Of a stretch of 64,000 nt of DNA, positions 38,626 through 56,055 are shown piece by piece. The notes under the pieces were generated by a model. The model was not told the DNA's origin, did not search any database, and saw only the letters and a list, made by a program, of their open reading frames with translations. A program made the translations under genes and the position numbers. The first letter of the stretch is position 1, and each line of letters opens with the position of its first letter. Origin of the DNA: Gemmatimonadota bacterium (GTDB taxonomy: Bacteria; Gemmatimonadota; Gemmatimonadetes; Longimicrobiales; Gaopeijiaceae); NCBI GenBank assembly GCA_009841165.1, contig VXMI01000114.1, positions 1 through 64,000 of the forward strand, given 5' to 3'.

Positions 38626-39996
38626 TCAGACCTGCACGCCCTGCCTGCGCAACCAGTCCTCCAGCGTCGCCCGGATCGTTCTCAGCCGTTCACGGGACCG
38701 GGCTTCGTATCTCGTCACGATCACGGGCTGGGTGTTGGACGCACGCACCAGCCCCCATCCGTGCTCGAAGAGCACACGCACACCGTCCACCGCCACCACC
38801 TTGTAGCCCGAGCTGAAGTGCTCGCGGGCACGTTCGACGATCCCGAACTTCTCATCCTCCTCGACGGCGATTCGGAGTTCGGGGGTCGAGACATACCTGG
38901 GAAAACCGTCGACTACTTGAGAGAGAGGGCGCGTGGATCTGGATACAAGATCCAGCAGCCGGCAGGCCGCATAGAGGGCGTCGTCGAATCCCAGATAGTC
39001 GTCCGAAAAGCAGATGTGACCGGAGAGCTCTCCCGCGAGACGTGCGCCTGTTTCCCTCATCTTCTCCTTGATGAGCGAGTGACCGGTCTTCCACATGACA
39101 GGCACGCCGCCCGCTTCCGAAAAGACCTCCGGGAGGACCTGCGAGCACTTCACGTCGAACACCAGTTTCTCGCCCGGCCCGCGGCGGCGAAGCAGATCCA
39201 GTCCGAACAGCAGAAGAAGCACGTCTCCCCTGACGATGCCTCCGCGGTGATCCACGACGCCGATACGGTCCGCGTCGCCGTCGAACCCGATCCCCAACTC
39301 CGCGCCGTGCGCCCGCACCGAGGCGATGAGGTCCTGAACGTACTCGTCCACGGTAGGGTCGGGGTGATGGTTGGGGAAGGTGCCGTCCGAATCGCAGTAC
39401 AGCGGAATGACCTCGGCCCCGATCGCCTCGAGAAGCTCGACGGCGACCACCGAACCCGTGCCGTTTCCGCAATCCACCACCACCTTGACCGGGCGTGCCA
39501 GCTTGAACCGTGCAGCCAGGTCGTCCACGTAGCCCGGCAGCACCTCACTGGATTCCGCCCGTCCTGTCCCCGCCGTGAACTCGGCGTTGCGGATGCGGCG
39601 AAGGAGGCCCTGTATCGCGTCCCCGTGCATGGACGCCCCCGCCATGGTCATCTTGATGCCGTTGTACTCCGCGGGGTTGTGGGACCCGGTGATCTGCACC
39701 GCGCCGTCGGCCTGGAGCCGATACTCGCTGAAATAGCTCACCGGGGTGGGAACCGTGCCGAGCCGGATCACGTCGCATCCGACGGACGTCAGCCCGCGAA
39801 CCATCCCGGTGCGCAGTGCGGGCGACGATGGACGGTTGTCTTCGCCTACCACAACCCTGGGCCGGCCAACCGCGCCTCGGTGTCTCAACTCCGAGCCGTA
39901 GGCCTTCCCCACCGCCTCGGCGACGGAAGGATCAAGTTCCTCGCCGACGATTCCACGGATGTCGTACTTGCGGAAGATGTGCTCCCGGAGGGGCAT
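38626..39996 (-). CDS. manB: Phosphomannomutase/phosphoglucomutase
   Basis: Alpha-D-phosphohexomutase of 456 residues, interconverting the 1- and 6-phosphates of mannose and/or glucose. The N-terminus FRKYDIRGIVGEELDP, the phosphoserine loop QITGSHNPAEYNG (about 105-117), the metal site GFDGDADRIGVVD and the sugar-binding loop GELSGHICFSD, followed by the phosphate-binding C-terminal ASNTQPVIVTRYEA, define the family (AlgC-like). It lies 26 bases after nuoN on the same strand, with no promoter seen, so it is probably the last gene of the nuo operon. It could feed the manC product pathway encoded at 6134. Confidence 0.92.
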   Translation of the reverse strand: MPLREHIFRKYDIRGIVGEELDPSVAEAVGKAYGSELRHRGAVGRPRVVVGEDNRPSSPALRTGMVRGLTSVGCDVIRLGTVPTPVSYFSEYRLQADGAVQITGSHNPAEYNGIKMTMAGASMHGDAIQGLLRRIRNAEFTAGTGRAESSEVLPGYVDDLAARFKLARPVKVVVDCGNGTGSVVAVELLEAIGAEVIPLYCDSDGTFPNHHPDPTVDEYVQDLIASVRAHGAELGIGFDGDADRIGVVDHRGGIVRGDVLLLLFGLDLLRRRGPGEKLVFDVKCSQVLPEVFSEAGGVPVMWKTGHSLIKEKMRETGARLAGELSGHICFSDDYLGFDDALYAACRLLDLVSRSTRPLSQVVDGFPRYVSTPELRIAVEEDEKFGIVERAREHFSSGYKVVAVDGVRVLFEHGWGLVRASNTQPVIVTRYEARSRERLRTIRATLEDWLRRQGVQV

Positions 39997-40022: not shown

Positions 40023-41537
40023 TCAGGGCACCAGCGCCTGGGACGCGCCCGCAACCAACAGCCTCAGCCCTTCGACCGAACCATATGCGAGATCGAGAAC
40101 GGTTTCGGGGAAGATCCCGCCCAGGATGATCAGTCCGGCGCTCAAGACGAGCACCGCGTGGGTGGCGAAGGGGGGATCGGCGCTGGACGCGATGGCGGCG
40201 GCGGTATCGTCACCCTCTTTCATCCACATGTACCAGGCCACGCGCAGGTAGTACCAGTACGACACAACGGTGGTGAGCACCAGCACGACCGACAGCCACC
40301 ACAGACGGGCCTCGGCCGCTCCCAGCAGGAGCTGGTACTTGGCGATGAAGCCTGCGGTACCCGGAAACCCGGCCAGCGAGAGCAGAAACACCGTCATGAA
40401 GACGCCCAGAACCGGACGACGCCACCCGAGCCCGGCGTAGTCCTCGATCCGGCTGTTCCCCTCGGACTGGCCGCCGACCGTGACCACGACGGCGAAGGCC
40501 GCGATGGTCATGATCGTGTAGACCAGGAGATAGAAGAGGAGCGAAGCGACCGCGGTGTCGTTGCCGGCCACCAGTGCCACGAGCAGATAGCCGCCGTGTG
40601 CGATCGAGGAGTAGGCCAGCATCCGCTTCACATTGGACTGGGCCAGCGCCACGACGTTGCCGACGACCATGGTAATCGCCGCGAGCCAATACAGAATCGG
40701 CCACCACTGCCCGTACACGCCCTCGAGTCCCACCACGAAGACCCGCAGAAACGCCACAAACGCCGCCGCCTTTACCGCAGCGGCCATGAACGCGGTCACC
40801 GGTGTCGGAGCCCCCTCATACACGTCGGGGGTCCACATGTGGAATGGTACCGCCGCCACCTTGAAGCCGAATCCGATCGCGAGGAGCGCAATTCCGGGAA
40901 CCAGCAGCTGGTTCGCCGTGGTTCCCGCGCCGATGGCCGAAGCGATCATCTGGATGTTCGTGCTTCCGGCCGCACCGTAGATCAGCGCGATTCCGAAAAG
41001 CAGGAACCCGGTGGCAAACGCGCCCAGGAGGAAGTACTTGAGTCCGGCTTCAGCCGACCGCCGATCCCGGCGGTTGAATCCGACCAGGGCATACACGCCG
41101 ATCGACATGAGTTCGAGCCCCAGGAAGATAACCATGAGGTCGCGCGCCGAGGCCATGACCATCATCCCCACGGTCGCAAACAGGATCAGCGAGTAGTACT
41201 CGCCCGCCTGGAGCTTTTGCCGGGTGACGTATGCCAGGGAAATCACGATCGACAGCGCGGCAGCCAGTATGAAGATCCAGTTCGCGAAGAGCCGGAACCG
41301 GTCCACCGCGATCATGGCGCTGGCACCGTCCTCGGCCACCCCGGAGTAGAGCCATCCGTTGGCGACCGCGGCGAGAGCCAGTCCCGCCACAGCCATCCAG
41401 CCGGTTTCCTGGCCCCGTCCTCCACCGTCCTTGCGGACCACCCCCATGATCAGGATGACCATCCCCCAGCACGAGAGCACGACCTCGGGGAGAAGCGCCA
41501 TGACGTAGTGGAAGCTGGACGTATAGTCGAGGAGCAT
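40023..41537 (-). CDS. nuoN: NADH-quinone oxidoreductase subunit N
   Basis: Antiporter-like proton-pumping subunit of complex I, 504 residues and about 14 membrane helices. ATG 41537 (MLLDYTSSFHYVMALLPEVVLSCWG) has GGAG just upstream and is four bases from the nuoM stop; the longer frame is not conserved. Typical segments are KYFLLGAFATGFLLFGIALIYG with the conserved Lys and Glu-containing helix, and VKAAAFVAFLRVF. Last of the nuo genes. Confidence 0.96.
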   Translation of the reverse strand: MLLDYTSSFHYVMALLPEVVLSCWGMVILIMGVVRKDGGGRGQETGWMAVAGLALAAVANGWLYSGVAEDGASAMIAVDRFRLFANWIFILAAALSIVISLAYVTRQKLQAGEYYSLILFATVGMMVMASARDLMVIFLGLELMSIGVYALVGFNRRDRRSAEAGLKYFLLGAFATGFLLFGIALIYGAAGSTNIQMIASAIGAGTTANQLLVPGIALLAIGFGFKVAAVPFHMWTPDVYEGAPTPVTAFMAAAVKAAAFVAFLRVFVVGLEGVYGQWWPILYWLAAITMVVGNVVALAQSNVKRMLAYSSIAHGGYLLVALVAGNDTAVASLLFYLLVYTIMTIAAFAVVVTVGGQSEGNSRIEDYAGLGWRRPVLGVFMTVFLLSLAGFPGTAGFIAKYQLLLGAAEARLWWLSVVLVLTTVVSYWYYLRVAWYMWMKEGDDTAAAIASSADPPFATHAVLVLSAGLIILGGIFPETVLDLAYGSVEGLRLLVAGASQALVP

Positions 41538-41541
41538 CGGT

Positions 41542-43116
41542 CTACTCCTCCTCGCCGGCAGGTCTGGGTGCGAGCCCGGCGCCCGGATCCGACGCACCGT
41601 CGAACAGCACCGTTCGCGCCTCCTCCACACGCTCCAGCACCACCTGGACGCTCGGCTCCATTCGCCGCAGGAAGGGTGCCGGATGGACGCCGATCCATAT
41701 CATCAGCGCCACGAGGGGCCCGAGCACGACACACTCCCGCCGCGACAGATCCGCGAAGGTCCTGTTCTCTGGCTTGTCCAGCTTGTTGAAGAGCACCCGC
41801 TGTACCATCGGAAGCATATAGTAGGCCGCAAAGATCACGCCCGTCGCGGCAATGATCGCCGTCACCGCATGGGTCTCGAAGGTGCCGATCAGCGCCAGGA
41901 ATTCGCCGATGAAGCCGCTTGTGCCGGGAAGGCCGATCGATGCCAGGGCAGTGATCACGAACGCCGTGGCGAAGAAGGGTGCAACCCGGCCGATCCCCCC
42001 GAAGTCCTCGATTCGCCGCGTGTGCCGGCGTTCGTACATCATCCCCAGCAGCAGGAAGAGCGCTCCGGTGGAAATGCCGTGGCTGATCATGACCACGAGC
42101 CCGCCCTGCAGCCCGTTGACCGTCAGCGCGAAGACCCCGATCACCACGAAGCCCATGTGCGCGACCGAGGTGTAGGCCACGAGCTTCTTCGCATCGGGCT
42201 GCACGGCTGCCACCCATGCCGCGTAGATGATCCCCGCAACGCCCAGAACGAGCATGACGGCGACAACCGTGGGGTGTTGCGCCGCTCCCGGGAAGAAAGG
42301 CAGGAGGAAGCGCAGGAAGCCGTAGGTGCCCATCTTGAGCAGCAGCGAGGCCAGAATCACCGACCCCGGCGTGGGCGCCTCGACGTGCGCGTCCGGAAGC
42401 CAGGTATGCAGCGGGAAGATGGGAACCTTGATCCCGAATGCCAGGGCAAAGGCCGCGAAGAGCCAAAGCTGCTCGCGCATCGTCAGGTCGGCACCGAGGA
42501 ATGCCTCGTAGCTGAAGGACCCGGAGCCGCTGCTGAAGTAGATGTAGAGAATGGCGACCAGCATCAGCAGCGAACCCACCGCCGTGTAGAGGAAGAATTT
42601 CACGGCCGCGTAGATCCTGCGCTCACCACCCCAGATGCCCACAATGAAGTACATCGGGATCAGCGTGAGCTCGAAGAACACGTAGAAGAGGAAGATGTCG
42701 GTCGCGAGGAAGACCCCGACCACGCCCGTCTGCAGGAGGAGCATGAGGGCGTAGAAGGCCTTGCGACGGGTCTTGATGTACTCGAACGAACCCAGGATCG
42801 CGATCGGTGTCGTGAGCGTGGTGAGCATGACCATGAACACCGAAATCCCGTCCAGGCCCAGCGCGTAGCTCACGCCCCAGGACTCGATCCAGGGAGTGGA
42901 GGACTGCATGGCGAAGCCGCCGCCGCCCGGGTCGAAGCTCCACCAGAGCCCGAGACTCAGCACGAAGACGGTTCCGGACCACGAGAATGCGATGTGCTTC
43001 GCCCTGTCCTCTGCGGCGGCCATCACATGGAACAGCCCCGCGACAGGGAGCCACAGGAGGGCATGAAGGACCCAGTCCTCGTACAGGGCCGGGATCGAAG
43101 CGATGAAATCCGTCAT
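41542..43116 (-). CDS. nuoM: NADH-quinone oxidoreductase subunit M
   Basis: Antiporter-like subunit, 524 residues, with about 14 helices. Conserved features include SWGVSYALGLDGISVFMVMLT, FFELTLIPMYFIVGIWGG with the glutamate needed for pumping, KFFLYTAVGSLLML with the conserved Lys, and the lysine helix LLLKMGTYGFLRF. It lies between nuoL (seven bases upstream) and nuoN (four bases downstream). Confidence 0.97.
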   Translation of the reverse strand: MTDFIASIPALYEDWVLHALLWLPVAGLFHVMAAAEDRAKHIAFSWSGTVFVLSLGLWWSFDPGGGGFAMQSSTPWIESWGVSYALGLDGISVFMVMLTTLTTPIAILGSFEYIKTRRKAFYALMLLLQTGVVGVFLATDIFLFYVFFELTLIPMYFIVGIWGGERRIYAAVKFFLYTAVGSLLMLVAILYIYFSSGSGSFSYEAFLGADLTMREQLWLFAAFALAFGIKVPIFPLHTWLPDAHVEAPTPGSVILASLLLKMGTYGFLRFLLPFFPGAAQHPTVVAVMLVLGVAGIIYAAWVAAVQPDAKKLVAYTSVAHMGFVVIGVFALTVNGLQGGLVVMISHGISTGALFLLLGMMYERRHTRRIEDFGGIGRVAPFFATAFVITALASIGLPGTSGFIGEFLALIGTFETHAVTAIIAATGVIFAAYYMLPMVQRVLFNKLDKPENRTFADLSRRECVVLGPLVALMIWIGVHPAPFLRRMEPSVQVVLERVEEARTVLFDGASDPGAGLAPRPAGEEE

Positions 43117-43123
43117 GTCGTCA

Positions 43124-45289
43124 TCAGAGGAAGACCGCGGCCCCGAGCACGAGGAGCACGCCCAGGGTCAGCACGAATGCATATGTATTTGCCTGGCCGG
43201 TCTGGAAGAGACTGACCGTCCAGCCGGCGAGACGCGTGAAGTTGCCGACGAAGTTGACGAAACCGTCGATGAGCACCGCATCGACCACCTTCCAGCACCA
43301 CCGCGAGGCCGCCAGCACCGGCCGTACGATCCCCGCGTCGAAGACTTCGTCGAAGTACCACTTGTTGGCCAGAATCCCGCGCAGCCCCCCGGGGGCCGCA
43401 GTGTCCCGGGCAGCTGCGACGTACTTGCGCCCGCCGAGCGCCCGGAGCGCCGCCAGGACCACAACGGCCGCAGCGAGGGTCGACGCGAGCGCCCATGCGA
43501 ATTCCCCACCGCCGACAAGGGGAGCCCCGTATGCCGGCTCTCCCAGTGCGGCCGTCTGGATTGCGGCCGCATCGTGCGTGACGGGTTCGAGCCAGTGATG
43601 CAGCCATTCGCTCATCGGCAGAGCCCCGAAGAGCCCCAGGAAGGACTCGGCCAGCGGTTCGGGGACGTTGACCCAGCCGCCGAAGACCGAAAGCACGGCC
43701 AGAATCGCCAGGGGTACCCACATCACGCGGGGCGCCTCGTGCAGATGCGGGCGGGCGTTGCGTTCCACGCGGCTTTCCCCGTGGAAGGTCATCACCATCA
43801 GCCGGGTCATGTAGAAGGCCGTCAGCATCGCGGTGACGAGTGCGACCAGCCAGTAGACCGTGTAGAGCGTCCCGAAGGGATTGGACGGGGCGCCGGCCCA
43901 CGCCGCCGTATACCAGATGATCTCGTCCTTCGAGAAGAAGCCGGCCAGTGGCCATATCCCGGCGATTGCGAGGGTGGCGACCCACATCACCACCCAGGTG
44001 ATGCGCATGCGGTCCTTCAGTCCCCCCATGTTCCGCATGTCCTGCGCATCCTCGTGGCTGTCGGCCCTGTGCAGGGCGTGGTGCATTGCGTGGATGACCG
44101 CGCCGGCCCCGAGGAACAGCAGCGCCTTGAAGAATGCGTGCGTCATGAGGTGGAAGATGGCGGCGGTGAACGCTCCCACACCCGCTCCCAGGAACATGAA
44201 GCCGAGCTGCGAGACGGTCGAATAGGCGAGCACCTTCTTGATGTCGTGCTGCTGCAGGGCGATGGTCGCCGCCAGCAGTGCGGTGAGCACCCCTACCCCG
44301 GCCACCACCGCCTGGCTGGTGGGTGCGAGCGCGTACAGAACAGAGGATCGCGCCACCATGTACACGCCCGCCGTGACCATGGTAGCCGCATGGATGAGCG
44401 CGGATACGGGCGTGGGGCCGGCCATCGCGTCGGGCAGCCACACGTGAAGCGGAACCTGTGCGCTCTTCCCTGCGGCGCCGAGCATGAGCAGCAGCGTGAT
44501 TGCCGTAACGGTGGCGCCGCCCGCCGCCAGCCGGCCCTCGGCTCCCTCGAATACCGGGCCGAAGTCCAGCGTCCCGAACGCCTGGAAGAGGAGGAACATC
44601 GCCAGCAGGAAGCCGAGATCCCCGATCCGGTTGACGATGAACGCCTTCTTCCCGGCGTCCGACTTCTCACGGTCGGTGAACCAGTACCCGATCAGCAGGT
44701 AGCTGCAGAGCCCGACGCCCTCCCAGCCGATGAACATCATCGCGTAGCCGGCGCCCATCACCAGCACCAGCATGAAGAAGACGAAGAGGTTCAGGTACGC
44801 GAAGTACCTCGGGTAGCCCGTGTCGTCCTTCATGTAGCCGACGCTGAAGACATGGATGAGGAAGCCCACGCCCGTCACGACCAGCATCATGATCATCGAG
44901 AGCTGGTCGAGCTGGATGGCGGCGTCGATCTGCAGGTTCCCGGTTACGATCCAGGTCCAGTACCTCACCACCACGGGATCGTGCAACTCCGCCCCGTACA
45001 TGCCCGCAAAGTTCCAAAGCGCGAGGACGAACGCGACGAACATCACCCCGGGACCGACCCAGGTGGGCAGCGTGTGCGTGCGGGGGCGTGCGGGTCCGGC
45101 GAAGGGATCCCACTCGGTGCCCGAGCGGAGCGCCGCGGACGACCGAGCCGCCGACCGGAGCGCGAGAACGCCGTTGACCACGAACCCCAGCAGCGGGAGC
45201 AGTATGATCAGCCCAGGCAGAACCGGCTCCCATTGCGCGACTTCCTGGACGGGAAGGTGTGGCCCCGGCACGGATGCGGCGAATCCCAT
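43124..45289 (-). CDS. nuoL: NADH-quinone oxidoreductase subunit L
   Basis: Largest pump subunit, 721 residues with about 16 helices and the long lateral C-terminal helix that bridges the other pumps. Motifs: FIGWEGVGLCSYLLIGYW with the conserved Glu, KKAFIVNRIGDLGFLLAM, KSAQVPLHVWLPDAMAGPTPVSALIHAATMVTAGVY and MGGLKDRMRITW. ATG 45289 is four bases after nuoK. Confidence 0.97.
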   Translation of the reverse strand: MGFAASVPGPHLPVQEVAQWEPVLPGLIILLPLLGFVVNGVLALRSAARSSAALRSGTEWDPFAGPARPRTHTLPTWVGPGVMFVAFVLALWNFAGMYGAELHDPVVVRYWTWIVTGNLQIDAAIQLDQLSMIMMLVVTGVGFLIHVFSVGYMKDDTGYPRYFAYLNLFVFFMLVLVMGAGYAMMFIGWEGVGLCSYLLIGYWFTDREKSDAGKKAFIVNRIGDLGFLLAMFLLFQAFGTLDFGPVFEGAEGRLAAGGATVTAITLLLMLGAAGKSAQVPLHVWLPDAMAGPTPVSALIHAATMVTAGVYMVARSSVLYALAPTSQAVVAGVGVLTALLAATIALQQHDIKKVLAYSTVSQLGFMFLGAGVGAFTAAIFHLMTHAFFKALLFLGAGAVIHAMHHALHRADSHEDAQDMRNMGGLKDRMRITWVVMWVATLAIAGIWPLAGFFSKDEIIWYTAAWAGAPSNPFGTLYTVYWLVALVTAMLTAFYMTRLMVMTFHGESRVERNARPHLHEAPRVMWVPLAILAVLSVFGGWVNVPEPLAESFLGLFGALPMSEWLHHWLEPVTHDAAAIQTAALGEPAYGAPLVGGGEFAWALASTLAAAVVVLAALRALGGRKYVAAARDTAAPGGLRGILANKWYFDEVFDAGIVRPVLAASRWCWKVVDAVLIDGFVNFVGNFTRLAGWTVSLFQTGQANTYAFVLTLGVLLVLGAAVFL

Positions 45290-45293
45290 CAGG

Positions 45294-45587
45294 TCACCAC
45301 TTCAGCAGGTTGAATCTGTCCACGTTGACCGTCTTGTAGTGCCTGAAGATGGAGATGATGATCGCGAGCCCGACGGCCGCTTCGGCGGCGGCCACGGTCA
45401 TCACGAAGAAGACGAAGAGCTGGCCTTCGATCCCGGTGTACCGGGACAGCGCCACGAAGGCCAGGTTGACCGCGTTGAGCTGCAGTTCAATGCTGAGGAA
45501 GATGATGATCGCGTTGCGGCGGACGATGACGCCGAGCGTTCCGATCACGAAGAGCGCGGCGCTCAGCAGAAGGGCGTAGGCGAGCAT
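45294..45587 (-). CDS. nuoK: NADH-quinone oxidoreductase subunit K
   Basis: Small three-helix membrane subunit, 97 residues. The second helix carries the two conserved glutamates ([12 protein letters not shown] and the later [14 protein letters not shown]), which form part of the proton path near the quinone site. It sits between nuoJ (16 bases) and nuoL. Confidence 0.97.
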
Positions 45588-45603
45588 GGCGGTCCCCCTC
45601 CCC

Positions 45604-46131
45604 TCAGGTCTTCGGTTTGGCGAGCACGACGGCGGCGACGATCGCGACGAGCAGCAGCAGGCCCATCAGTTCGAAGGCGACGACGTAGTCGGTGAAGAGG
45701 GGTTCGGCGATCACGCCCGCCGCCCCCTGCTCGCGTACGGCGGCGTCGAGCGCGGCCGCGACGGCAGCCCCGTCACCCCGGAACCCCGTGTCCGACGCGC
45801 CCCAGAACGCCTGTCCAAGGACACCCGCCGTGAGCCCCGCGACCACGAGCGCCAGCAACGACCACAGGCCGTACTTCAGATCCGCCCGGTAGTCGTGGCC
45901 GAGGTTCAGCAGCATGATCACGAACAGGAAGAGGACCATGATCGCACCGGCATAGACCAGCACCTGGATCGCCGCTAGGAAGTGCGCCTCGAAGAGCACG
46001 TAGATCCCGGCGACGCTGGCCAGGGTGGCCACCATGAAGAGGAGACTTGCAACCGGCGTGCGGCTGAGCACCACGCCGAACGCTCCCCCCAGGGCGACCA
46101 CGGCGAACAGGACGAAGAGAATCTCGGTCAT
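45604..46131 (-). CDS. nuoJ: NADH-quinone oxidoreductase subunit J
   Basis: Five-helix membrane subunit, 175 residues. ATG 46131 overlaps the nuoI stop as ATGA; the longer frame is nuoI in another frame. The conserved third helix reads [25 protein letters not shown], with the tyrosine and glycine of the pi-bulge. The region between helices 4 and 5 (about 108-150) is rather long and Ala/Gly rich. Confidence 0.95.
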
Positions 46132-46628
46132 TCGGAGCGGGGGTCGGAGGGGTCCCAGAGCAGTGTCGTCGGGTGATCCTGCTCCATCAGACGGTCGAGG
46201 TCGTAGACGAATCGGTCCCGGGTGTACTCCGCATTCTCGAAGTGCTGACCGACGTGAATCGCCTCGACCGGGCAGACCTCCTGGCACATGCCGCAGAAGA
46301 TGCACCGGAATTCGTCGATTTCATACACGATCGGGTAGCGGTTGCCCTGGTCGTCCTCTCCACCCACCAGCCGGATGCAGTTGGCCGGACAAACCGTCGG
46401 GCAGAGTCCGCACGCCACGCACTTCGGCCGTCCGTCCGCATGCACCTCCATCCGGTGCGTGCCGCGCCAGCGGGGGTGCAGATCCGGCTGGTCCTCGGGG
46501 TATTCGAGCGTGACCTTCTTGACGCGCAGCAGGTGCTTGAAGGTGAGGCTCATCCCCTTCAGCGTGGCCCGCATGTACGATGTTCGCCCGGCCTCGGGGC
46601 GACGCATGACCTTGACCGATATCGCCAT
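46128..46628 (-). CDS. nuoI: NADH-quinone oxidoreductase subunit I
   Basis: Peripheral-arm subunit that holds clusters N6a and N6b, 166 residues. It has two 4Fe-4S motifs, CVACGLCPTVCPANCI and CIFCGMCQEVCPVEAI. ATG 46628 shares a base with the nuoH stop (TAATG). The N-terminus is longer than in many homologues (MAISVKVMRRPEAGRTSYMRATLKG). Confidence 0.97.
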   Translation of the reverse strand: MAISVKVMRRPEAGRTSYMRATLKGMSLTFKHLLRVKKVTLEYPEDQPDLHPRWRGTHRMEVHADGRPKCVACGLCPTVCPANCIRLVGGEDDQGNRYPIVYEIDEFRCIFCGMCQEVCPVEAIHVGQHFENAEYTRDRFVYDLDRLMEQDHPTTLLWDPSDPRSE

Positions 46629-47944
46629 TATGAGACACTCCCGTCCGGGTTTGCGGCCGCCCGTCTCGCCAGGAGCGCTCGCGAGGCTTCCCGGCGTCGG
46701 GCAACGGCGCCCATGCCATGCGCTCCCGCGATGACGCGGTCGCGATCGATGAAGAAGAAGAAGGCGATCGTCGTCACCCCGCTCACCCCTGTCAGGACAA
46801 GGCCGTAGAGGAGGCCGAACGGCACACCGAGCTGGTCGAGGACGAGCATGGTACCGGCGATCAGCACGATGTAGCCCAGGGCGGCCGGCAGCAGGACCTT
46901 CCAGCCCAGGTGCATGACCTGGTCGTAGCGGAAGCGCGGCAGCGTCCAGCGAATCCAGATGTAGAGGAAGACGAAGAAGGCCGTCTTGGTGCAGAACGCG
47001 CCCAGGGTCAGCAGCGTGATGAGGACGCTCGGCGTGGCCGCGATCGGCGCGCCCGCATCGTCGAAACCCCTTATCAGCGCCCCTTCGTGCCAGAACATGT
47101 CGTCGCCCGTCCAGACGGGGATATCCCAGCCGCCGAAGAAGAGGGTGGCCATCAGCGCGGACGCGGTGAGAACGTGCGAGTACTCGGCGATGAAGAACAT
47201 CGAGAACTTGATTGCGGAGTACTCGGTGTGGTACCCCGTGATCAGCTCCGACTCGGCCTCGGGCATGTCGAAAGGAAGCCGGTTCGTCTCGGCCAGCGCC
47301 GAGATCACGAAGAAGATGAAGGCGAGCGACAGCGGAAAGACGAACCACAAGCCCAGCTGTTGCTGCTGCCACACCATCTCCGTCAGCGTGACGTTGCCGG
47401 CCAGCAGCAGTACCGCGATCACGGAGAGTCCGAGCGCGACCTCGTAGGAGATCATCTGCGCGGACGCGCGCAGCCCCCCCAGAAACGCATACTTGTTGTT
47501 CGAAGCCCATCCGGCGAGCACGATCCCGTAGACCGCCAGAGAGGAAAGAGCCAGGATGTAGAGGATTCCAATCGGCACGTCGGCCACGATCATGTCGACC
47601 GTACCCACGGGGGTGGGCAGAGGCGCCGCAAATGGGATGACGGCGAAGGTCACCACGGCCGGCATGATCGCCAGCGCAGGCCCCAGCACGAAGTAGAGCT
47701 TCGCACTGGTGCCGGGCATCGTCTCTTCCTTGATGATATTCTTGAGGCCGTCGGCGATGGGCTGAAGGAGTCCGAACGGCCCGACGCGGTTGGGACCCAG
47801 CCGGTCCTGGATGAAGGCCGACACCCTGCGTTCGGCCAGCGTCATGTATGCCACCACCAGCATGACGACGGTGAACACGGCCAGGACCTTCACGCCGCCG
47901 ATCACCCAGAACCAGAAGGTCGTGAGCTGGTTCATCTCATGCAT
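46628..47944 (-). CDS. nuoH: NADH-quinone oxidoreductase subunit H
   Basis: Membrane subunit that forms the quinone chamber with NuoB and NuoD, 438 residues and about eight or more helices. Motifs: MTLAERRVSAFIQDRLGPNRVGPFGLLQPIADGLKNIIKEE and the acidic loop AETNRLPFDMPEAESELITGYHTEYS. Start is ATG 47944, overlapping the nuoG stop by eight bases; ATG 47935 is the alternative. Confidence 0.96.
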   Translation of the reverse strand: MHEMNQLTTFWFWVIGGVKVLAVFTVVMLVVAYMTLAERRVSAFIQDRLGPNRVGPFGLLQPIADGLKNIIKEETMPGTSAKLYFVLGPALAIMPAVVTFAVIPFAAPLPTPVGTVDMIVADVPIGILYILALSSLAVYGIVLAGWASNNKYAFLGGLRASAQMISYEVALGLSVIAVLLLAGNVTLTEMVWQQQQLGLWFVFPLSLAFIFFVISALAETNRLPFDMPEAESELITGYHTEYSAIKFSMFFIAEYSHVLTASALMATLFFGGWDIPVWTGDDMFWHEGALIRGFDDAGAPIAATPSVLITLLTLGAFCTKTAFFVFLYIWIRWTLPRFRYDQVMHLGWKVLLPAALGYIVLIAGTMLVLDQLGVPFGLLYGLVLTGVSGVTTIAFFFFIDRDRVIAGAHGMGAVARRREASRALLARRAAANPDGSVS

Positions 47945-49541
47945 GGGCCGGCTCCAGCACGGCACCCGCGGTGCCGATGGCGTCGTGGCTCAATCCCGCG
48001 AATGCGGCGTACTCCACGGCAAGCGCGGCGAACGCGTCGGCGGCGCTTCCCGGGGGGTTGCCGCCCTCCACCGCCGCCAGCAGCGCACCCAGCACCAGCC
48101 AGGCCGGCCGCGCCGACCCGGGAGCCTGCAAGCCCTGTTCAAAACGCTGCACCCGGCCCTGCGCATTCACGAACGTTCCGTCTTCCTCGGCGAAGGTCGT
48201 GACGGGAAGCACGAAGTCGGCGTTGCGTGCCGCGGGAGATTCGAATGTCCCGAGATACACGTACAGGCTGGCGTCCGCACCGAAGTCCTCGGGCTGATCG
48301 CCCAGCTGGTCGCCCAGCACCACCAGGATTCCGTCGTGGCTCGCCGCCGCGCCCAGTCCGCCGGTGGCGTCGTCCGAGCCGGCGGGCTCGAACCCGAGAA
48401 TGCTCGCCCCGTCGACATTCGGTGCGAGGTCCCGCCGGCGAACGAGCAGCGGGAAGCCCGGCAGCGGGTCTTCGTCCTCGGCCCGTCGGCAGCGGAAAAC
48501 GCTCTCGGTCACGTTCCCCACGGCCCGGCCCAGCCGGTGAAGCGTCCCGAGTGCCTCGTTCGAGGCGAAGGGGGAGCCGACGATCCTCACGCCGGCCCCT
48601 TCGATCTCTCGCAGCCGGTCCAGGAGAGCGCCCAGCGCCGTCTGCCAGTCGGCCGCCCGCCGCTTCCCGCCGCGTCCCACGCCAGGACTCTCGATCCGTC
48701 CAGCCCGGTTGATCCACTCGTAGTTGGCGCGACCGTAGTCGCACATCCAGTGGCCGTTGACCTCCTGGTTTTCCCGGGGCTTGAGCCGCTGCACCAGGTT
48801 GTCGCGGGCATGCAGGTCGATATTGCACCCCTGCGAGCAGTTGGGGCAGATCGATGGGGTGTGATCCAGGTCCCAGGCCCGTGCCTTGTGGAGGAAATCC
48901 TTCGAAACCAGCGCACCCACGGGGCAGATGTCGACGATGTTGCCGGCGAAGGACGCATCGTCCAGCCCACTCTCGAAGAAGGTGTCGATCACCGCGCGGT
49001 CCCCGCGCTCCACAACGGTCAGACGGGCGTCGTCCGCGACCTCGTCCATGAAGCGCACGCAACGGGTGCACATCACGCACCGGTCGCCGTAGTAGAACAC
49101 GTCGCCGCCGAAGTCGTCCCGGCCGAAGACGCGTTTGGGTTCCCGCGCCCTCCCCTGCTCCCGCCCCTCGTCGAACACGTAGTCCTGCAGCTTGCACTCG
49201 CCCGACATGTCACAGATGGGACAGTCGAGCGGGTGGTTGACCAGGTAGAACTCAAGCACGCCCTGCCGCATCCGCTTGGCCGACGGGCTCTCGGTGTGGA
49301 CCACCTGTCCGTCCTGCGCCATCGTCACGCACGACGGTTGCAGCTTGGGCGCCCCCTCGACCTCGACCAGGCAGATCCTGCACTGGGCCGGGGCGGACAG
49401 GCCCGGATGATAGCAGTAGTGCGGCACTTCGATCCCGAGCGTCTCGGCCGCGTGCAACAGCGACGTCCCCTTCGGCACGTTGACCTCGTGGCCGTCGATC
49501 GTGAGGGTGACCGTATCGGCTCTGCGGCTAACATCCGCCAT
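47937..49541 (-). CDS. nuoG: NADH-quinone oxidoreductase subunit G, short form with N7 motif
   Basis: Iron-sulfur subunit of the peripheral arm. The 534 residues begin with the 2Fe-2S ferredoxin-like domain (CRICLVEVEGAPKL), then the NuoG His/Cys cluster region (CPICDMSGECKLQDYVFDEG) and CVMCTRCVRFMDEV...ICPVGAL. After that the molybdopterin-like domain carries C-x2-C-x3-C-x27-C (CPNCSQGC to HWMC), the ligand pattern of the off-path N7 cluster. It is shorter than E. coli NuoG because the end of the molybdopterin-like domain is reduced. ATG 49541 follows GAGGAGC. Confidence 0.93.
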   Translation of the reverse strand: MADVSRRADTVTLTIDGHEVNVPKGTSLLHAAETLGIEVPHYCYHPGLSAPAQCRICLVEVEGAPKLQPSCVTMAQDGQVVHTESPSAKRMRQGVLEFYLVNHPLDCPICDMSGECKLQDYVFDEGREQGRAREPKRVFGRDDFGGDVFYYGDRCVMCTRCVRFMDEVADDARLTVVERGDRAVIDTFFESGLDDASFAGNIVDICPVGALVSKDFLHKARAWDLDHTPSICPNCSQGCNIDLHARDNLVQRLKPRENQEVNGHWMCDYGRANYEWINRAGRIESPGVGRGGKRRAADWQTALGALLDRLREIEGAGVRIVGSPFASNEALGTLHRLGRAVGNVTESVFRCRRAEDEDPLPGFPLLVRRRDLAPNVDGASILGFEPAGSDDATGGLGAAASHDGILVVLGDQLGDQPEDFGADASLYVYLGTFESPAARNADFVLPVTTFAEEDGTFVNAQGRVQRFEQGLQAPGSARPAWLVLGALLAAVEGGNPPGSAADAFAALAVEYAAFAGLSHDAIGTAGAVLEPAHA

Positions 49542-49616
49542 GGGGGCTCCTCGGGTGCGTGAAGCGGTCACCGCCGGTAAGCGGCGGGCGTGCCGGGTGC
49601 CGGGTGCGCGGGCGCA

Positions 49617-50909
49617 TCAGGCTGCTCCCACCCGCTCGCCCCGCCGTATCAGGGCGAGGTAGTCTTCGCGGAACTTCTCTATCGAGGAAATGATGGGCAT
49701 CGCCAGCGAGTCCGACAGAACGCAGATCGTGGTGCCGGTCATCTGCTCCGAGATCTCGATCAGGGTGTCCAGGTCGTCCTCGGTCCCGAGCCCGTCCTCG
49801 ATGCGGCGAAGGATGCGCGTGGCCCACGCCGTTCCCTCTCTGCAGGGCGTACACTGCCCGCAGGACTCGTGCGCGTAGAAGTACGCCATGCGCCTGACCT
49901 GCTTGACGATGTCGGTGTTCTCGTCCATCACGATCACCGACGCGCAGCCGAGCAGGGAGCCCGCGGCTTCGACGCCCTCGTAGCAGAGCGTGCAGCTCCG
50001 GCAGTCGTCCGCGCTCATGATGGGAACCGAACTCCCCCCCGGGATCACTGCCTTGAGGGCCTTGCCGTCCCGCATGCCGCCACAGATGTCCTCGATGAGC
50101 TCCATCATCGGGAAGCCCAGCGGCAGTTCGTAGTTCCCGGGCCTGTTCACATGGCCCGATACGCAGAAAAGCTTGGTGCCCGGGCTCTTTTCGGTGCCCC
50201 ACTGCCGGTACCACTCTGCGCCGTGCCGCACGATGTGAGGCGTCGCCGCGAGCGTCTCGACGTTGTTGATGGTGCTGGGCATGCCGAAGGCGCCCACCGC
50301 CGCCGGAAACGGCGGCTTGATCCGGGGCTCTCCCCGCCGGCCCTCCAGGGAGTTCATGAGGCCGGTTTCCTCGCCGCAGATGTACGCACCCGCGCCGACG
50401 TGCAGCGTCATGTCGATGTCCACCCCGGAGCCCATGATGTCTCTGCCCACGAGACCCTTTTCGTAGGCCTCCTCGAGGGCGCGGGCGAGCACATTGGTGG
50501 TCTCGAAGAACTCGCCGCGCAGGTAGATGTAGCAGTGCGACGCGCCGATGGCGTACGATCCCACCAGACATCCCTCGATGAGCTGATGGGGGGTCCAGCG
50601 GATGATCTCGCGGTCCTTGAAGGTGCCGGGCTCGGATTCGTCCGCGTTGCACAGCATGTAGTGCGGGCGGCCCGAGTCCTTCGGCATGAACGACCACTTG
50701 AGTCCGGTGGGGAAACCCGCCCCGCCGCGCCCGCGCAGCCCCGAGTTCTTCACCTCGTCGATCGTCGCGTCCCGCCCGATCTCCAGCGCCCGCGCAATCC
50801 CCTGGTAGCCGCCGTACCGCTTCCAGCCCTCCACGGTGCGCGCGGCGGGATCTCCGAATCCCTCGCTGAGGACCCGGACCTCCTTGTCGTGTCGGTAGGG
50901 GTATGCCAA
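49617..50909 (-). CDS. nuoF: NADH-quinone oxidoreductase subunit F
   Basis: NADH-oxidising subunit holding FMN and cluster N3. The 430 residues have the NADH/FMN glycine loops GLRGRGGAGFPTGLKW and GAGAYICGEETGLMNSLEG and the cluster motif ESCGQCTPCREGT. The open frame extends upstream into nuoE, but a TTG at 50909 gives the normal length and continues as LAYPYRHDKEVRVL. The gap to nuoG (75 bases) is the longest within the operon. Confidence 0.94.
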   Translation of the reverse strand: MAYPYRHDKEVRVLSEGFGDPAARTVEGWKRYGGYQGIARALEIGRDATIDEVKNSGLRGRGGAGFPTGLKWSFMPKDSGRPHYMLCNADESEPGTFKDREIIRWTPHQLIEGCLVGSYAIGASHCYIYLRGEFFETTNVLARALEEAYEKGLVGRDIMGSGVDIDMTLHVGAGAYICGEETGLMNSLEGRRGEPRIKPPFPAAVGAFGMPSTINNVETLAATPHIVRHGAEWYRQWGTEKSPGTKLFCVSGHVNRPGNYELPLGFPMMELIEDICGGMRDGKALKAVIPGGSSVPIMSADDCRSCTLCYEGVEAAGSLLGCASVIVMDENTDIVKQVRRMAYFYAHESCGQCTPCREGTAWATRILRRIEDGLGTEDDLDTLIEISEQMTGTTICVLSDSLAMPIISSIEKFREDYLALIRRGERVGAA

Positions 50910-50935
50910 AGTGCCGTCCCGGGGATCTCCCCGCG

Positions 50936-51595
50936 CTAGTCGCCCTTGAGTTCGTCGGTCAATCGACGCAGGATGTCCGGCACGTCGCCGGCCGCAACAT
51001 CCTCGAAGTACCGTTCGTTGATCTGCACGCACGTCGGGAATCCGCACGCCGCGAGGCACTCGGCCTCGACGACCGTGAAGTTCTCGTCCGCCGACGTATC
51101 GCCCAGCTCCGTGTCCGTGTGCTGGAGGAACGCCGCCAGAACCTCGTCCGCGCCGCACAGATTGCACGAGATGTTCGTGCACACCTGTATGAGGAAGCGC
51201 CCCACGGGACGCTTGTTGTACATCGTGTAGAAGGTCGCCACTCCCCTCACGTACGCGCTGCTCAGTCCAAGGAGGGCCGCCACTTCGTCCATCGTCTCCG
51301 GGGAGACGTGGCCGCGTATCTCCTGCGCGAGGTTGAGCGCCGGCAGCAGTGCGGCCCTCGCCGTGGGATAGCGCCCCCGGATTTTCTCGAAACGCTCCTG
51401 GTAGGGGCCCTCGAACAGCGGTGCACCGGGGTTCCTCGCGACCAGCATGAACGGGTAGCTCGCCGAGGTGCTGGGGTGCCCGCCGTCCAGGGGCCGCTCG
51501 CCAGCGTAGGTGGTGCCGCGCACGTCGGCTTCGCTCAGGTCGAACTCGCCGGTGTTGCCGGCCCAGCCGGGGTTGCGGAAGGGGACGTCGCTCAA
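50936..51595 (-). CDS. nuoE: NADH-quinone oxidoreductase subunit E
   Basis: Thioredoxin-like 2Fe-2S subunit carrying cluster N1a. The 219 residues contain VCTNISCNLCGA with the first Cys pair and ECLAACGFPTC with the second. The TTG at 51595 overlaps the nuoD stop as TTGA and gives an N-terminal extension of about 50 residues; an ATG at 51448 (MLVARNPGAPLFEGPYQERF) would give a normal-length protein. The TTG is preferred for its coupling but is not proven. Confidence 0.9.
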   Translation of the reverse strand: MSDVPFRNPGWAGNTGEFDLSEADVRGTTYAGERPLDGGHPSTSASYPFMLVARNPGAPLFEGPYQERFEKIRGRYPTARAALLPALNLAQEIRGHVSPETMDEVAALLGLSSAYVRGVATFYTMYNKRPVGRFLIQVCTNISCNLCGADEVLAAFLQHTDTELGDTSADENFTVVEAECLAACGFPTCVQINERYFEDVAAGDVPDILRRLTDELKGD

Positions 51596-52869
51596 CGATC
51601 GATCTCCCCGAGCACGATGTCGAGGCTCGCGTTGATGACGATCAGATCGGCCATGAGGTGCCCTTCGGCGAGCTTCGGAATGGCCGACAGGTTGACGAAC
51701 GACGGGGGCCGTATGCGCCAGCGCACCGGCTTGGGGCCGCCGTCGCCGACCACGTACATCCCCAGCTCGCCCTTCGAACCCTCGACGGAGAACCAGCAGT
51801 CCTCGGCGGGCGCCGGGATTCCCTCGGTGATGAGCTTGAAGTGATGGATCATGGACTCCATGTCGGACATGCAGTCGGTCTTGGACGGCAGGCTGATGCG
51901 TGGATCCGCCACGTCCATGGGCCCGCCCGGCAGACCATCGAGCGCCTGGTGCAGGATGCGGATGCTCTGGCGCATCTCCTCCATGCGCACGAGGTAGCGG
52001 TCGTAGCAGTCCCCGTGGCACCCGATCGGGACCTCGAAGTCGTAGCTCTCGTAGTCGTAGTAGGGGCGGTCCTTGCGCACGTCGTAGGGAACGCCGCTGG
52101 CACGCAGATTGGCGCCCGTAAGGCCGTGGTTTACCGCGTCCTCCGCCGAGATCGCCCCGATCCCCTGCGTGCGCCCGATGTGGATCGCGTTGTGCTTCAG
52201 CAGTCCGTCGATCTCGTCGAGCGTTGCCGGCAGATTGTCGGCGAACTCCCTCACCCCGTCCGTCCAGCCCACGGGAAGGTCGGCCATCATGCCGCCGATC
52301 CGGGTCGCCGACGTGGTGATCCGTGCTCCCGTCAGCGCCTCGTGGAGCTTGTAGACCTTTTCACGCTGCTGGAAGGCGTAGAGGAACGGAGTGAACGCGC
52401 CGACGTCGATCGCCCATGTCCCGAGCCAGAGCAGGTGCGAGAATATGCGGTCCATCTCCATGCAGATCACCCGGGCAACCCTGCAGCGATCCGTTACCTC
52501 GATGCCCATAAGCTTTTCCACGGCCATCACATAGGCACAGTTGTAGATCAGCGGCGCGAGGTAGTCCATGCGGTCCGTGAGCGTGACGATCTGGTTCCAC
52601 GTGCGGTATTCGCCCAGCTTCTCGAACGACGAGTGCAGGTATCCGAGCCGGGGGACCACGCTGACCACGGTCTCGCCGTCGAGTTCGACGACCAGCCGCA
52701 GAACCCCGTGGGTCGCCGGATGCTGCGGCCCGACGTTGACCAGCATGGTCTGGGACCCCAGTTCCGGCTCCGGTGCGTCGAAGGGCTCCGTGGGACTCGC
52801 GACGAGGGTGCCGCCGGGCCCCATTTCGGGGTTGCGGCTGACGCCGTACTCGACCGTTCTAGTCGACAT
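51592..52869 (-). CDS. nuoD: NADH-quinone oxidoreductase subunit D
   Basis: 49-kDa-type subunit that forms the quinone-binding site, 425 residues. Conserved motifs are NVGPQHPATHGVLRLVVELDGE, PRLGYLHSSFEKLGEYRTWNQIVTLTDRMDYLAP and the C-terminal VEGSKGELGMYVVGDGG...PSFVNLSA. ATG 52869 is 11 bases inside the end of nuoC and follows GAGGGAGG. Ends as TTGA into nuoE. Confidence 0.97.
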   Translation of the reverse strand: MSTRTVEYGVSRNPEMGPGGTLVASPTEPFDAPEPELGSQTMLVNVGPQHPATHGVLRLVVELDGETVVSVVPRLGYLHSSFEKLGEYRTWNQIVTLTDRMDYLAPLIYNCAYVMAVEKLMGIEVTDRCRVARVICMEMDRIFSHLLWLGTWAIDVGAFTPFLYAFQQREKVYKLHEALTGARITTSATRIGGMMADLPVGWTDGVREFADNLPATLDEIDGLLKHNAIHIGRTQGIGAISAEDAVNHGLTGANLRASGVPYDVRKDRPYYDYESYDFEVPIGCHGDCYDRYLVRMEEMRQSIRILHQALDGLPGGPMDVADPRISLPSKTDCMSDMESMIHHFKLITEGIPAPAEDCWFSVEGSKGELGMYVVGDGGPKPVRWRIRPPSFVNLSAIPKLAEGHLMADLIVINASLDIVLGEIDR

Positions 52870-53560
52870 CGTCGCCTCCCTCATCGCCTTCCGCATCGGC
52901 GCCGATCACCTGGGGCACGCGCTCGCCGATCTCACCGGGCACGTAGTAGTCCTCCGGATCCTGGGTGAGCGCCCTGCGGGTCTGCTCGGCACGGGAGAAC
53001 CGGCCGCGCAGGGGGAAATCCTTTCGCAGGGGGTGCCCCTCGGCGTAGTTGTCCGGCATCAAAATGCGGCGCAGATCCGGGTGCCCTGCGAAGTCGACGC
53101 CGAAGAGATCGAAAACTTCGCGCTCCAGCCAGTTCGCCCCGGCCCAGATCCCGGTAACGCTCTCGATTTCGAGGCCGTCGAGGGGAAGCTCGCACTTCAC
53201 TCTCAAAGCCCTTCGGTGGGGGATCGACCAAAGCTGGTAGACGACTTCGAGGGGCCTGCCACCACCGTAGTCCACCGCGGTGACATCGGCCAGATGATCG
53301 TACTGCTGCTCGGGCGCGTCATGGAGCCAGCGAAGCATCTCGACGACACGCGCGGAATCGATGTACACCACATCCTCGTCGCCTGCGTGCACGGCGTTGC
53401 GCAAGACCCCGTCCGGAAACCGCTCCCGAAGCGCGGTCACGGCAGGATTGCCGGGGGGAACGACCGCGGGCGCCTCGATGGCTGCGGCCGACTCGCGCCC
53501 GCGCCCCGTACCCGCGGCGACGAGATCGAACGGCGAACCCTGCGACGTCGGAGGGCTCAA
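52859..53560 (-). CDS. nuoC: NADH-quinone oxidoreductase subunit C
   Basis: 30-kDa-type peripheral subunit, 233 residues. Signature: [84 protein letters not shown]. The TTG at 53560 overlaps the nuoB stop as TTGA. The N-terminal 45 residues are low complexity. A separate gene for NuoD, not a NuoCD fusion. Confidence 0.95.
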
Positions 53561-54210
53561 GGCAGGCGGTCCTCCGAGCGGCTGACGGCGTCGGTCTCGA
53601 CGAGGCCGCTCACCCGGTTCTGGTGTGTCGAATTCCCGAACGGTCCGGTCAGGTCGAAGACCTCCCGGTCGTCGGCGCGCGGACGGCCGGCCGCCAGCGG
53701 ATCCTCCGCACGCAGTTCGGCATGGTTGGCAAGACTCTCGCCGCGGATCTTCTCCTGGACCATCATGAGCCCGTAGATCAGCCCCTCCGGACGGGGCGGA
53801 CATCCGGGGATGTAGACATCGACCGGCACGATCGTGTCTATGCCCTGCACCATCGAGTAGACGTCGAAAACGCCGCCTGACGACGCGCACGCGCCCATCG
53901 AGATACACCACTTGGGCTGCATCATCTGATCCCAGATCCGCCGGAGCACCGGAGCCAGCTTGTAGGGAACGCGGCCCGCGCAGATCAGCACGTCGGCCTG
54001 CCTGGGGCTGAAGGACATGCGCTCCATCCCGAAGCGGGCCAGATCGAAGTTGCTGGCCGCCGACGCCATCATCTCGATCGCGCAGCAGGCGGTGCCGAAA
54101 GGCATGGGCCACAGCGAATTGCGCCGGGCCCAGTTAACCACGAAGTCAAGTCTGGTGGTGAGGAAGGTCGGGCTCGCGGAACCCGACATGCCCGGGTTTT
54201 CTACTCCCAT
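53557..54210 (-). CDS. nuoB: NADH-quinone oxidoreductase subunit B
   Basis: Subunit carrying the terminal cluster N2. The 217 residues show the four Cys ligands in [23 protein letters not shown] and [13 protein letters not shown] 54210 ([10 protein letters not shown]) is 10 bases inside nuoA, which is more plausible than the longer ATG 54231. The C-terminal tail after residue about 160 ([27 protein letters not shown]) is an extension of about 60 residues. Confidence 0.96.
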
Positions 54211-54557
54211 TCCAAACCGCCTTTCTTCCATTCATACAACAACCCCACCCCCAGCACGACAACGAAGAGGAGGACCGCCACGAAGGGTCCCCATCCGAGT
54301 TCGCGCACGCGAACGGCCCAGGGCACGAGGAAGATCGTCTCGAGGTCGAACACGATGAAGCTGATCGCGACCATGTAGAACTTGATCGAGAACCGGGCCC
54401 GCGTATCGCCCAGCGGGATCATCCCCGATTCGTACGGCATCGCCTTCTGGGGCGTGGGCCGGCGGGGGTTGAGAACGTGCGAGGCGACCGCCATCCCGAC
54501 GGCGTTGAGGACCGTCACGCCCAGGATGATCAGGAGCGGTATGTAGGACTTCGCCAT
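54201..54557 (-). CDS. nuoA: NADH-quinone oxidoreductase subunit A
   Basis: First gene of the complex I operon; three-helix membrane subunit of 118 residues. The conserved loop [42 protein letters not shown] is present. ATG 54557. The leader upstream holds a Rex-type operator and a sigma-70 promoter, which implies control of the whole operon by cell redox state. Confidence 0.96.
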
Positions 54558-54641
54558 GCTGCGCAGCCTCTCCCCGCGGTGGCACCCCGCCCTGTTGCAG
54601 TTTTCGTCCGCCCGGACAAGCCGGGACTCTGCGCCGCGAGC

Positions 54642-54659
54642 TTGTGAAAACTTTCACGA
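54642..54659 (-). promoter_or_regulatory. Rex-type operator in the nuoA leader
   Basis: TTGTGAA-AACT-TTCACGA matches the Rex consensus TTGTGAA-N4-TTCACAA with one mismatch. It begins about 13 bases downstream of the predicted nuo transcription start, a position at which a bound repressor could block the polymerase. Rex is an NADH/NAD+ sensing repressor, and nuo genes are a known Rex target in Streptomyces. No rex gene is in this window. Confidence 0.75.
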
Positions 54660-54679
54660 ACTCCCGGAATCAACGCCCA

Positions 54680-54708
54680 AAGATACGGGGGCGCGCGGGC
54701 AGATTCAA
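54680..54708 (-). promoter_or_regulatory. Sigma-70-type promoter of the nuo operon
   Basis: Leftward TTGAAT (54708-54703), a 17-base spacer and TATCTT (54685-54680). Transcription is expected to start near 54672, giving a leader of about 115 bases to the nuoA ATG and placing the Rex-type operator just inside the transcript. Confidence 0.7.
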
Positions 54709-54754: not shown

Positions 54755-54784
54755 TTGGCACCCGCGCCCCGTCCTGGCTATCTT
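54755..54784 (+). promoter_or_regulatory. Sigma-70-type promoter of dcd
   Basis: TTGGCA (54755-54760), an 18-base spacer and TATCTT (54779-54784), giving a start near 54791 and a leader of about 90 bases to the dcd ATG. The -10 element is the same as at the nuo promoter on the other strand. Confidence 0.5.
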
Positions 54785-54880: not shown

Positions 54881-55435
54881 ATGCCAGTCAAGAGCGACCG
54901 CTGGATCCGGAAGATGGCCCGTGAACACGGCATGATCGACCCGTTCGAACCCGGACAGATCAGGAACGGCCGCATCTCCTATGGGCTCTCCTCCTTCGGC
55001 TACGACATCCGCGTAGCGCCCGAATTCAAGGTCTTCACGAACGTTCACAACCTGGTTGTGGACCCCAAGTCCTTCGATGAGCGGTCCTTTGTGCACGTCG
55101 ATGCCCCGGAGTGCATCATACCGCCGAATTCGTTCGCTCTCGCGCGGACCGTGGAGCACTTCCGCATCCCGCGCGACGTGCTTGTACTGTGCGTGGGCAA
55201 GAGCACCTACGCGCGGTGCGGAATCATCGTGAACGTCACTCCGCTCGAACCCACCTGGCAGGGCTACCTGACGTTGGAAATCTCCAACACGACTCCGCTC
55301 CCGGCCAGGATCTACGGAGGCGAGGGCATCGCCCAACTGGTTTTCTTCCAGGGCGACGAGGCACCCGAGGTGGCCTACGCGGACCGCAAGGGCAAGTACC
55401 AGGGCCAGGTGGGGGTGACGCTCCCGAAGCTGTAG
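54881..55435 (+). CDS. dcd: dCTP deaminase
   Basis: Converts dCTP to dUTP for thymidylate synthesis, 184 residues. Motifs: [22 protein letters not shown] (beta-rich core), [50 protein letters not shown] with the catalytic Glu and the family's terminal [14 protein letters not shown] 54881 gives the normal N-terminus [22 protein letters not shown]; the longer frame is not conserved. Whether it also hydrolyses dUTP cannot be decided. Confidence 0.94.
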
Positions 55436-55483: not shown

Positions 55484-56053
55484 TCAGGGCTCCACCGCCA
55501 GCAGTTCGAAGCGGTAGACCAGGACCGCGTTGCCGGGAACGCGTCCGTCCAGGGAACCCGCGGCACCGAAACCGAGCCTCGGCGGTACGACGATCTGGCG
55601 CGCGCCGCCGACGCGCATTCCCTCGAGCCCGATGTCCCACCCCGCGATGGTCTGCCCGCTGCCGACGAGGTAGTAGACCTCGCCGTCGAAGGGGCTGATG
55701 AACGCCCCGGGCGAAAACTGATCGATCGGATACTCGCCCCCGTCCACGGGAGTCCCGTCGTGCAACCAGCCCTGGTAGTTGAAACGGGCCCCCTGCTGCT
55801 GTCCCACGGAGGCGCCTTCGCCCACGGTCAGATCGCGGATGTAGAGCCCCGACGGGAGCAGGGTCATCTCGGAGAGGTCGACACCCAGGGACGCGGCGAA
55901 GACCAGGCTCTCGATGTCGGGCGGGCCGGGGTCCAGCGGGTCGCTCTCAACGCCGCAGCCGGCCACAACCGGCAGTGTAGCCACGCCAGGGAGGAACAGC
56001 GACCGCAACCGGCGCCGACCTTCGTTCACGGCGCTGCTTGTGAAGCGCTTCAC
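55484..56053 (-). CDS. FKBP-type peptidyl-prolyl isomerase lipoprotein
   Basis: Envelope-anchored FKBP-type foldase of 189 residues. After a signal sequence with lipobox VAGC (Cys33) comes a linker, then the FKBP domain at about 85-187 (GQQQGARFNYQGWLHDGTPVDGG, GWDIGLEGMRVGGARQIVVPPRLGFG, VLVYRFELL). GTG 56053 overlaps the amidohydrolase stop (GTGA); a second GTG at 56029 (MNEGRRRLRSL) would give a tighter signal peptide and would place a perfect palindrome just upstream of the gene instead of inside it. Confidence 0.85.
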   Translation of the reverse strand: MKRFTSSAVNEGRRRLRSLFLPGVATLPVVAGCGVESDPLDPGPPDIESLVFAASLGVDLSEMTLLPSGLYIRDLTVGEGASVGQQQGARFNYQGWLHDGTPVDGGEYPIDQFSPGAFISPFDGEVYYLVGSGQTIAGWDIGLEGMRVGGARQIVVPPRLGFGAAGSLDGRVPGNAVLVYRFELLAVEP

Positions 56054-56055
56054 AA
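56038..56055. promoter_or_regulatory. Perfect Rex-type palindrome at the amidohydrolase/FKBP junction
   Basis: TTGTGAA-GCGC-TTCACAA fits the Rex consensus exactly, and the symmetry extends to 20 bases (56037-56056). It overlaps the amidohydrolase stop and the GTG of the FKBP gene. A TTGACC lies upstream at 56095-56100, but no clear -10 follows, so a promoter for the FKBP gene is uncertain. Confidence 0.5.

Follow-up and report, generated by a model that had tools for sequence, protein, structure and literature searches.

A putative Rex operator in the complex I leader of a marine Gemmatimonadota bacterium

In a marine Gemmatimonadota bacterium, the complex I operon carries a putative Rex site, an 18-bp palindrome, shortly after its transcript start. 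We found no report of Rex in Gemmatimonadota in the open-access literature. The locus raises the question of whether the palindrome is an operator for this redox repressor and, if so, what it would control. Here we analysed a 64-kb stretch of the genome (the window) together with the remainder of the assembly and the corresponding loci of related genomes. Taken as a whole, the evidence makes it very probable that positions 54642-54659 form a true operator of the single Rex protein of this genome, with NADH-released repression of nuoA-N.

The nuoA promoter, its palindrome and the neighboring genes

Read directly on the minus strand, the nuoA promoter consists of TTGAAT, a 17-bp spacer and TATCTT, followed after 20 bp by the 18-mer, which is TCGTGAAAGTTTTCACAA at 54659-54642 and TTGTGAAAACTTTCACGA on the plus strand. 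Both the promoter and the 18-bp site were found exactly as an earlier sequence-only reading of this DNA had written them. Counted from the start site inferred from the -10 element, the palindrome spans roughly +15 to +32, and the nuoA start lies 84 bp beyond it. This is the near-promoter placement, ahead of a respiratory operon, that is expected of a Rex operator. The 18-mer contains one departure from TTGTGAA-N4-TTCACAA, located in the promoter-proximal half. A scan for E. coli-type promoters missed TTGAAT/TATCTT, but 68/69 relatives have this -35/-10 arrangement ahead of the site, mostly as TTGACA-N17/18-TACCTTT. Coordinates are collected in Table 1.

Table 1 Features of the nuoA region in the window
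Feature	Position	Strand	Basis
-35 element TTGAAT, nuoA promoter	54703..54708	-	Read directly; relatives have TTGAAT or TTGACA here
-10 element TATCTT, nuoA promoter	54680..54685	-	Read directly; TATCTT, TACCTT or TACATT in relatives
Putative Rex operator TCGTGAA-AGTT-TTCACAA, nuo leader	54642..54659	-	Sequence, motif counts, conservation
Extended inverted repeat around the operator, possible genus-specific leader hairpin	54634..54667	-	16 leaders
nuoA, first gene of the complex I operon, 118 aa	54201..54557	-	Best family NuoA, below equivalog cut-offs
nuoA to nuoN, all co-oriented	40023..54557	-	ORFs; nuoN and nuoM at the matching place in relatives
Phosphoglucomutase/phosphomannomutase gene	38626..39996	-	Family match; 26 bp after nuoN
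dcd (dCTP deaminase), divergent neighbor	54881..55435	+	Family match

The sequence-only reading had also placed the phosphomannomutase gene under Rex-like control. Its co-orientation stands, and six relatives among those read keep it next to nuoN, one of them at a distance of about 790 bp. The gene is probably a read-through member of the nuo transcript, with co-transcription likely; from co-orientation and conserved adjacency, indirect control by the Rex operator is plausible. On the other side, dcd is not evidently under the operator, which lies about 95 bp from a promoter-like site (54755-54784) belonging to dcd itself. A perfect TTGTGAAGCGCTTCACAA is also present at 56038-56055, where the stop of an amidohydrolase-like gene meets the start of a gene for an FKBP-like lipoprotein. 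We considered this palindrome as a second conserved operator and rejected it: both of the nearest relatives have disrupted versions (TTGTGAAGCGTTCACAA and TCGTGAGGCCTTTCACGG), which places it outside the conserved regulon.

A single Rex protein, and loss of the site with rex

An operator of this kind presupposes a rex gene, and the search for a homologue returned exactly one. Its product is the only PF06971 protein in the genome (E 4.6e-17), scores above the NCBIfam Rex equivalog cut-offs, and combines the PF06971 winged helix at the N-terminus with a C-terminal PF02629 CoA_binding/Rossmann domain for NAD(H). Alignment with Rex proteins of solved structure covers nearly all of it (E 1e-42 to 5e-31), and it keeps GAGRIG in the Rossmann fold, QVRKDLS as the recognition stretch and RG in the wing. 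The winged helix holds the Arg-Lys that reads the half-site in the Rex family. In T. maritima Rex, the equivalent Arg/Lys recognise G5/G7/A8 in each half-site, and the Arg-Gly of the wing contacts the two outer T in the minor groove (PMC8836258). The start of the rex gene itself carries a perfect operator, TTGTGAA-CACT-TTCACAA, and a perfect site lies at the rex start in 8/8 members of the genus and 23/30 members of the family. Such an own-gene operator, typical of the Rex family, suggests autoregulation.

Conservation was assessed at nuoA loci from 80 public contigs (Gemmatimonadetes/Longimicrobiales and other titles) and from 88/96 genomes of the same family, 84/96 of which encode rex. The recurring layout is TTGAC/TTGAA-N17/18-TACCTT or TATCTT, a gap of mostly 8-20 bp, and the 18-mer. 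Among the 87 family genomes with readable DNA upstream of nuoA, the exact core GTGAA-N4-TTCAC is present in 67/76 rex-bearing and 2/11 rex-less genomes (Fisher p 4e-6, kinship uncorrected). The two rex-less genomes that keep the site are 73% and 78% complete, and rex may simply be absent from their assemblies. The nine concordant losses of rex and site are spread over four genera (g12, g9, g38 and g40); in g40, the only sampled member without rex, G058, is also without the nuoA site. In nine rex-less genomes, no perfect Rex motif occurs anywhere. The palindrome is therefore conserved across the family and tracks the presence and absence of rex, as would be expected of a Rex operator, and with the single rex gene this upholds the proposal that the complex I operon is a Rex-type target. 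The natural rex-loss lineages serve as controls, making the assignment unusually firm for an argument from sequence.

The exact core is missing at nuoA from nine genomes that do encode rex; in seven of these the site is altered, and in the other two, both of genus g10, there is none. Four of the altered sites, which read AAGTGACCGATTTCACAC and similar, belong to genomes that encode a divergent Rex only (G019, G029, G055 and G069, genera g20 and g29), with E about 1e-12 vs the usual 1e-15 to 1e-20. G043 encodes two divergent copies and one normal Rex, and G060 and G065 have altered sites despite rex. The pairing of divergent Rex with altered sites hints at co-evolution, possibly with a shifted recognition code.

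Other readings of the palindrome and the spread of perfect sites

Could the palindrome be a chance resemblance? Beyond the single mismatch, nothing speaks for this, and we regard its probability as negligible. The window holds 3 matches with at most 3 mismatches to TTGTGAA-N4-TTCACAA, vs 0.45 expected from shuffles, and 0/100 shuffles reached 3. The whole genome (4.27 Mb in 239 contigs, 96.6% complete) contains 11 perfect and 17 one-mismatch motifs, where a first-order model expects 0.0016 perfect motifs, and a reversed control pattern has 0 matches across the same 4.27 Mb. In eight genomes of the genus, which together contain 73 Rex motifs, neither the control palindrome TTGAGAA-N4-TTCTCAA nor the Rex halves with a 3-bp spacer occur at all. 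With the site also conserved over dozens of genera, chance was rejected. A CRP/FNR-family site is another proposal, as the CRP consensus TGTGA-N6-TCACA is nested within that of Rex and is common to both kinds of operator. The letters fit, and there are 22 TGTGA-N6-TCACA sites genome-wide, but 21/22 also match the additional letters of Rex, departing from them at one position or none. The PF13545 helix-turn-helix of a CRP/FNR-type regulator has 0 matches in this 96.6% complete genome, whereas 14/14 control genomes are positive. Given, in addition, that the rex start bears a perfect copy and that the sites disappear where rex does, we consider this reading extremely unlikely and rejected it.

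The conserved element could instead, or in addition, act at the RNA level, as a hairpin of the nuo leader. Within the genus, as many as eight positions on either flank are pairable, and the predicted leader fold includes the hairpin. Across 16 leaders, 89.7% of the cells of the inverted repeat are paired and four pairs show two-sided changes, a modest excess over shuffles. This longer inverted repeat around the operator recurs at the same place in L044-L072. However, the outer C.A of the motif is a mismatch that does not vary within the genus, the flanks pair poorly in most other genera while the 18-mer stays, the stability of the leader fold is ordinary (z = -1.2), and there are 0 Rfam matches. 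Loss of the element along with rex would also be left without explanation. An RNA attenuator was accordingly judged a weak candidate, and we hold it to be very improbable.

A second, unrecognised protein of Rex-like specificity might also use the sites of this genus, above all those within genes. It would be suggested by the distribution of perfect motifs, of which genomes in the genus have 5-17 (about 0.002 expected), compared with 0-2 in 15 other rex-bearing genomes sampled. Against it, the Rex present here, with its conserved recognition residues, would be expected to recognise the same sequence, genera without the site expansion share the nuoA site, and there is one PF06971 protein only; we think such a protein distinctly unlikely.

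Many of the perfect motifs are intragenic and occupy orthologous places across the genus. Examples from this genome and seven genus members include L038:3990-4007, L035:5975-5992, L036:4057-4074 and L031:3636-3653, and the genes concerned include salicylyl-CoA hydroxylase/oxidoreductase, carB, gcvP, mnmE and others. The site is perfect in 17/21 orthologues of the oxidoreductase part of salicylyl-CoA 5-hydroxylase/oxidoreductase and in 15/23 orthologues of carB, with two more one base off in each case. The palindromes are spelled in codons that are rare here (TTT for 10% of Phe, ACA for 8% of Thr, TGT for 20% of Cys and ATT for 11% of Ile), and orthologues without an intragenic site mostly have GC-rich synonyms. 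Third-position conservation in carB is no higher within the palindrome than outside it and is no proof on its own, so the case for selection rests on the rare codons and the genome-wide excess. Both suggest selection on the DNA, with the caveat that the species are related. It is a real, if tentative, possibility that Rex acts as a genome-wide DNA-binding protein in this genus, with several intragenic operators, including one in a gene for an ABC-transporter-like ATPase, kept at fixed places through selection for the DNA and not the protein, and with NADH acting within genes. If true, NADH status would act there by roadblock, titration or chromosome organisation. Separately, two tandem Rex-like palindromes, 23 bp apart, lie between convergent genes at L033:3978-4018.

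Half-site asymmetry and a proposed rex/nuo/atp circuit

The nuoA palindrome had been described as one base off consensus. The single mismatch is indeed present, but it belongs to a conserved, operator-specific asymmetry and is not a near miss. Across 69 genomes, the outer bases of the promoter-proximal half at nuoA are TC in 26, TA in 15, AA in 14, AC in 13 and TT in 1, while the distal half ends in AA in 67/69. At the rex operators, the corresponding outer bases are TT in 28/30. The expectation that other respiratory genes would carry the motif held for the ATP-synthase operon, which has a third conserved operator, TTGCGAA-N4-TTCACAA (L024:249-266 on C162, and L319-L347). The upstream half of this operator seems also to serve as the -35 element. 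The atp site is kept in most rex-bearing genomes and is missing from the rex-less genomes read. The departures at nuoA and atp are in different places, each conserved and each in the promoter-proximal half. This pattern suggests graded affinities among the operators; with its consistently poorer promoter-proximal half, nuoA would be a weaker and earlier-released target than rex.

By analogy with the Rex family, repression at this locus would respond to NADH. The rex gene, the sites, their conservation, their loss with rex and the asymmetry are observed in the sequences, and from there we infer Rex binding, the NADH response, the direction of control and the affinity ranking. In the mechanism we propose, a Rex dimer, free or NAD+-bound, would occupy TCGTGAA-AGTT-TTCACAA about 15-32 bp past the nuoA start site and block nuoA-N transcription at promoter clearance or in early elongation. 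A rise in NADH would release Rex and allow complex I, the main NADH oxidase of the chain, to be made. Rex would repress its own gene through the perfect site and the ATP-synthase operon through the -35-overlapping site, with the nuoA operator released earlier than that of rex. The contrast between the asymmetric nuoA site and the perfect rex site would allow a clear test of the idea that respiratory operons answer to NADH in an order dictated by operator strength.

The Rex proteins of Thermus thermophilus and Thermotoga maritima, known from solved Rex-DNA-NAD complexes, align with that of this genome nearly full length through the recognition helix, wing and NAD-binding fold; the difference is that the targets here are respiratory complexes. 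The closest parallel is S. avermitilis, in which Rex directly represses rex-hem, nuoA1-N1, atp and cyd via imperfect sites (PMC5355995). For comparison we used its regulon of rex-hemAC1DB, nuoA1-N1, atpIBEFHAGDC and cydA1B1CD, with sites at rex (TTGTGCACGCGTTCACAA), nuoA1 (TTGTGACCTGCTTCACAT) and atpI (TTGTGATACGGTTCACGA) (PMC5355995). The likeness covers the protein family, the 18-bp motif and the core targets rex/nuo/atp, and it extends to detail, as the nuo and atp sites are imperfect and the atp site overlaps the -35 (PMC5355995). The two systems differ at nuo, where the operator lies between the -35 and -10 in S. avermitilis and downstream of the inferred start site here, and in the systematic half-site asymmetry that here separates nuo from rex operators. 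Judged by its operators, the rex/nuo/atp regulon is as in Streptomyces, a known kind of switch in a group for which we found no earlier account of it, and the redox circuit known there now extends to Gemmatimonadota.
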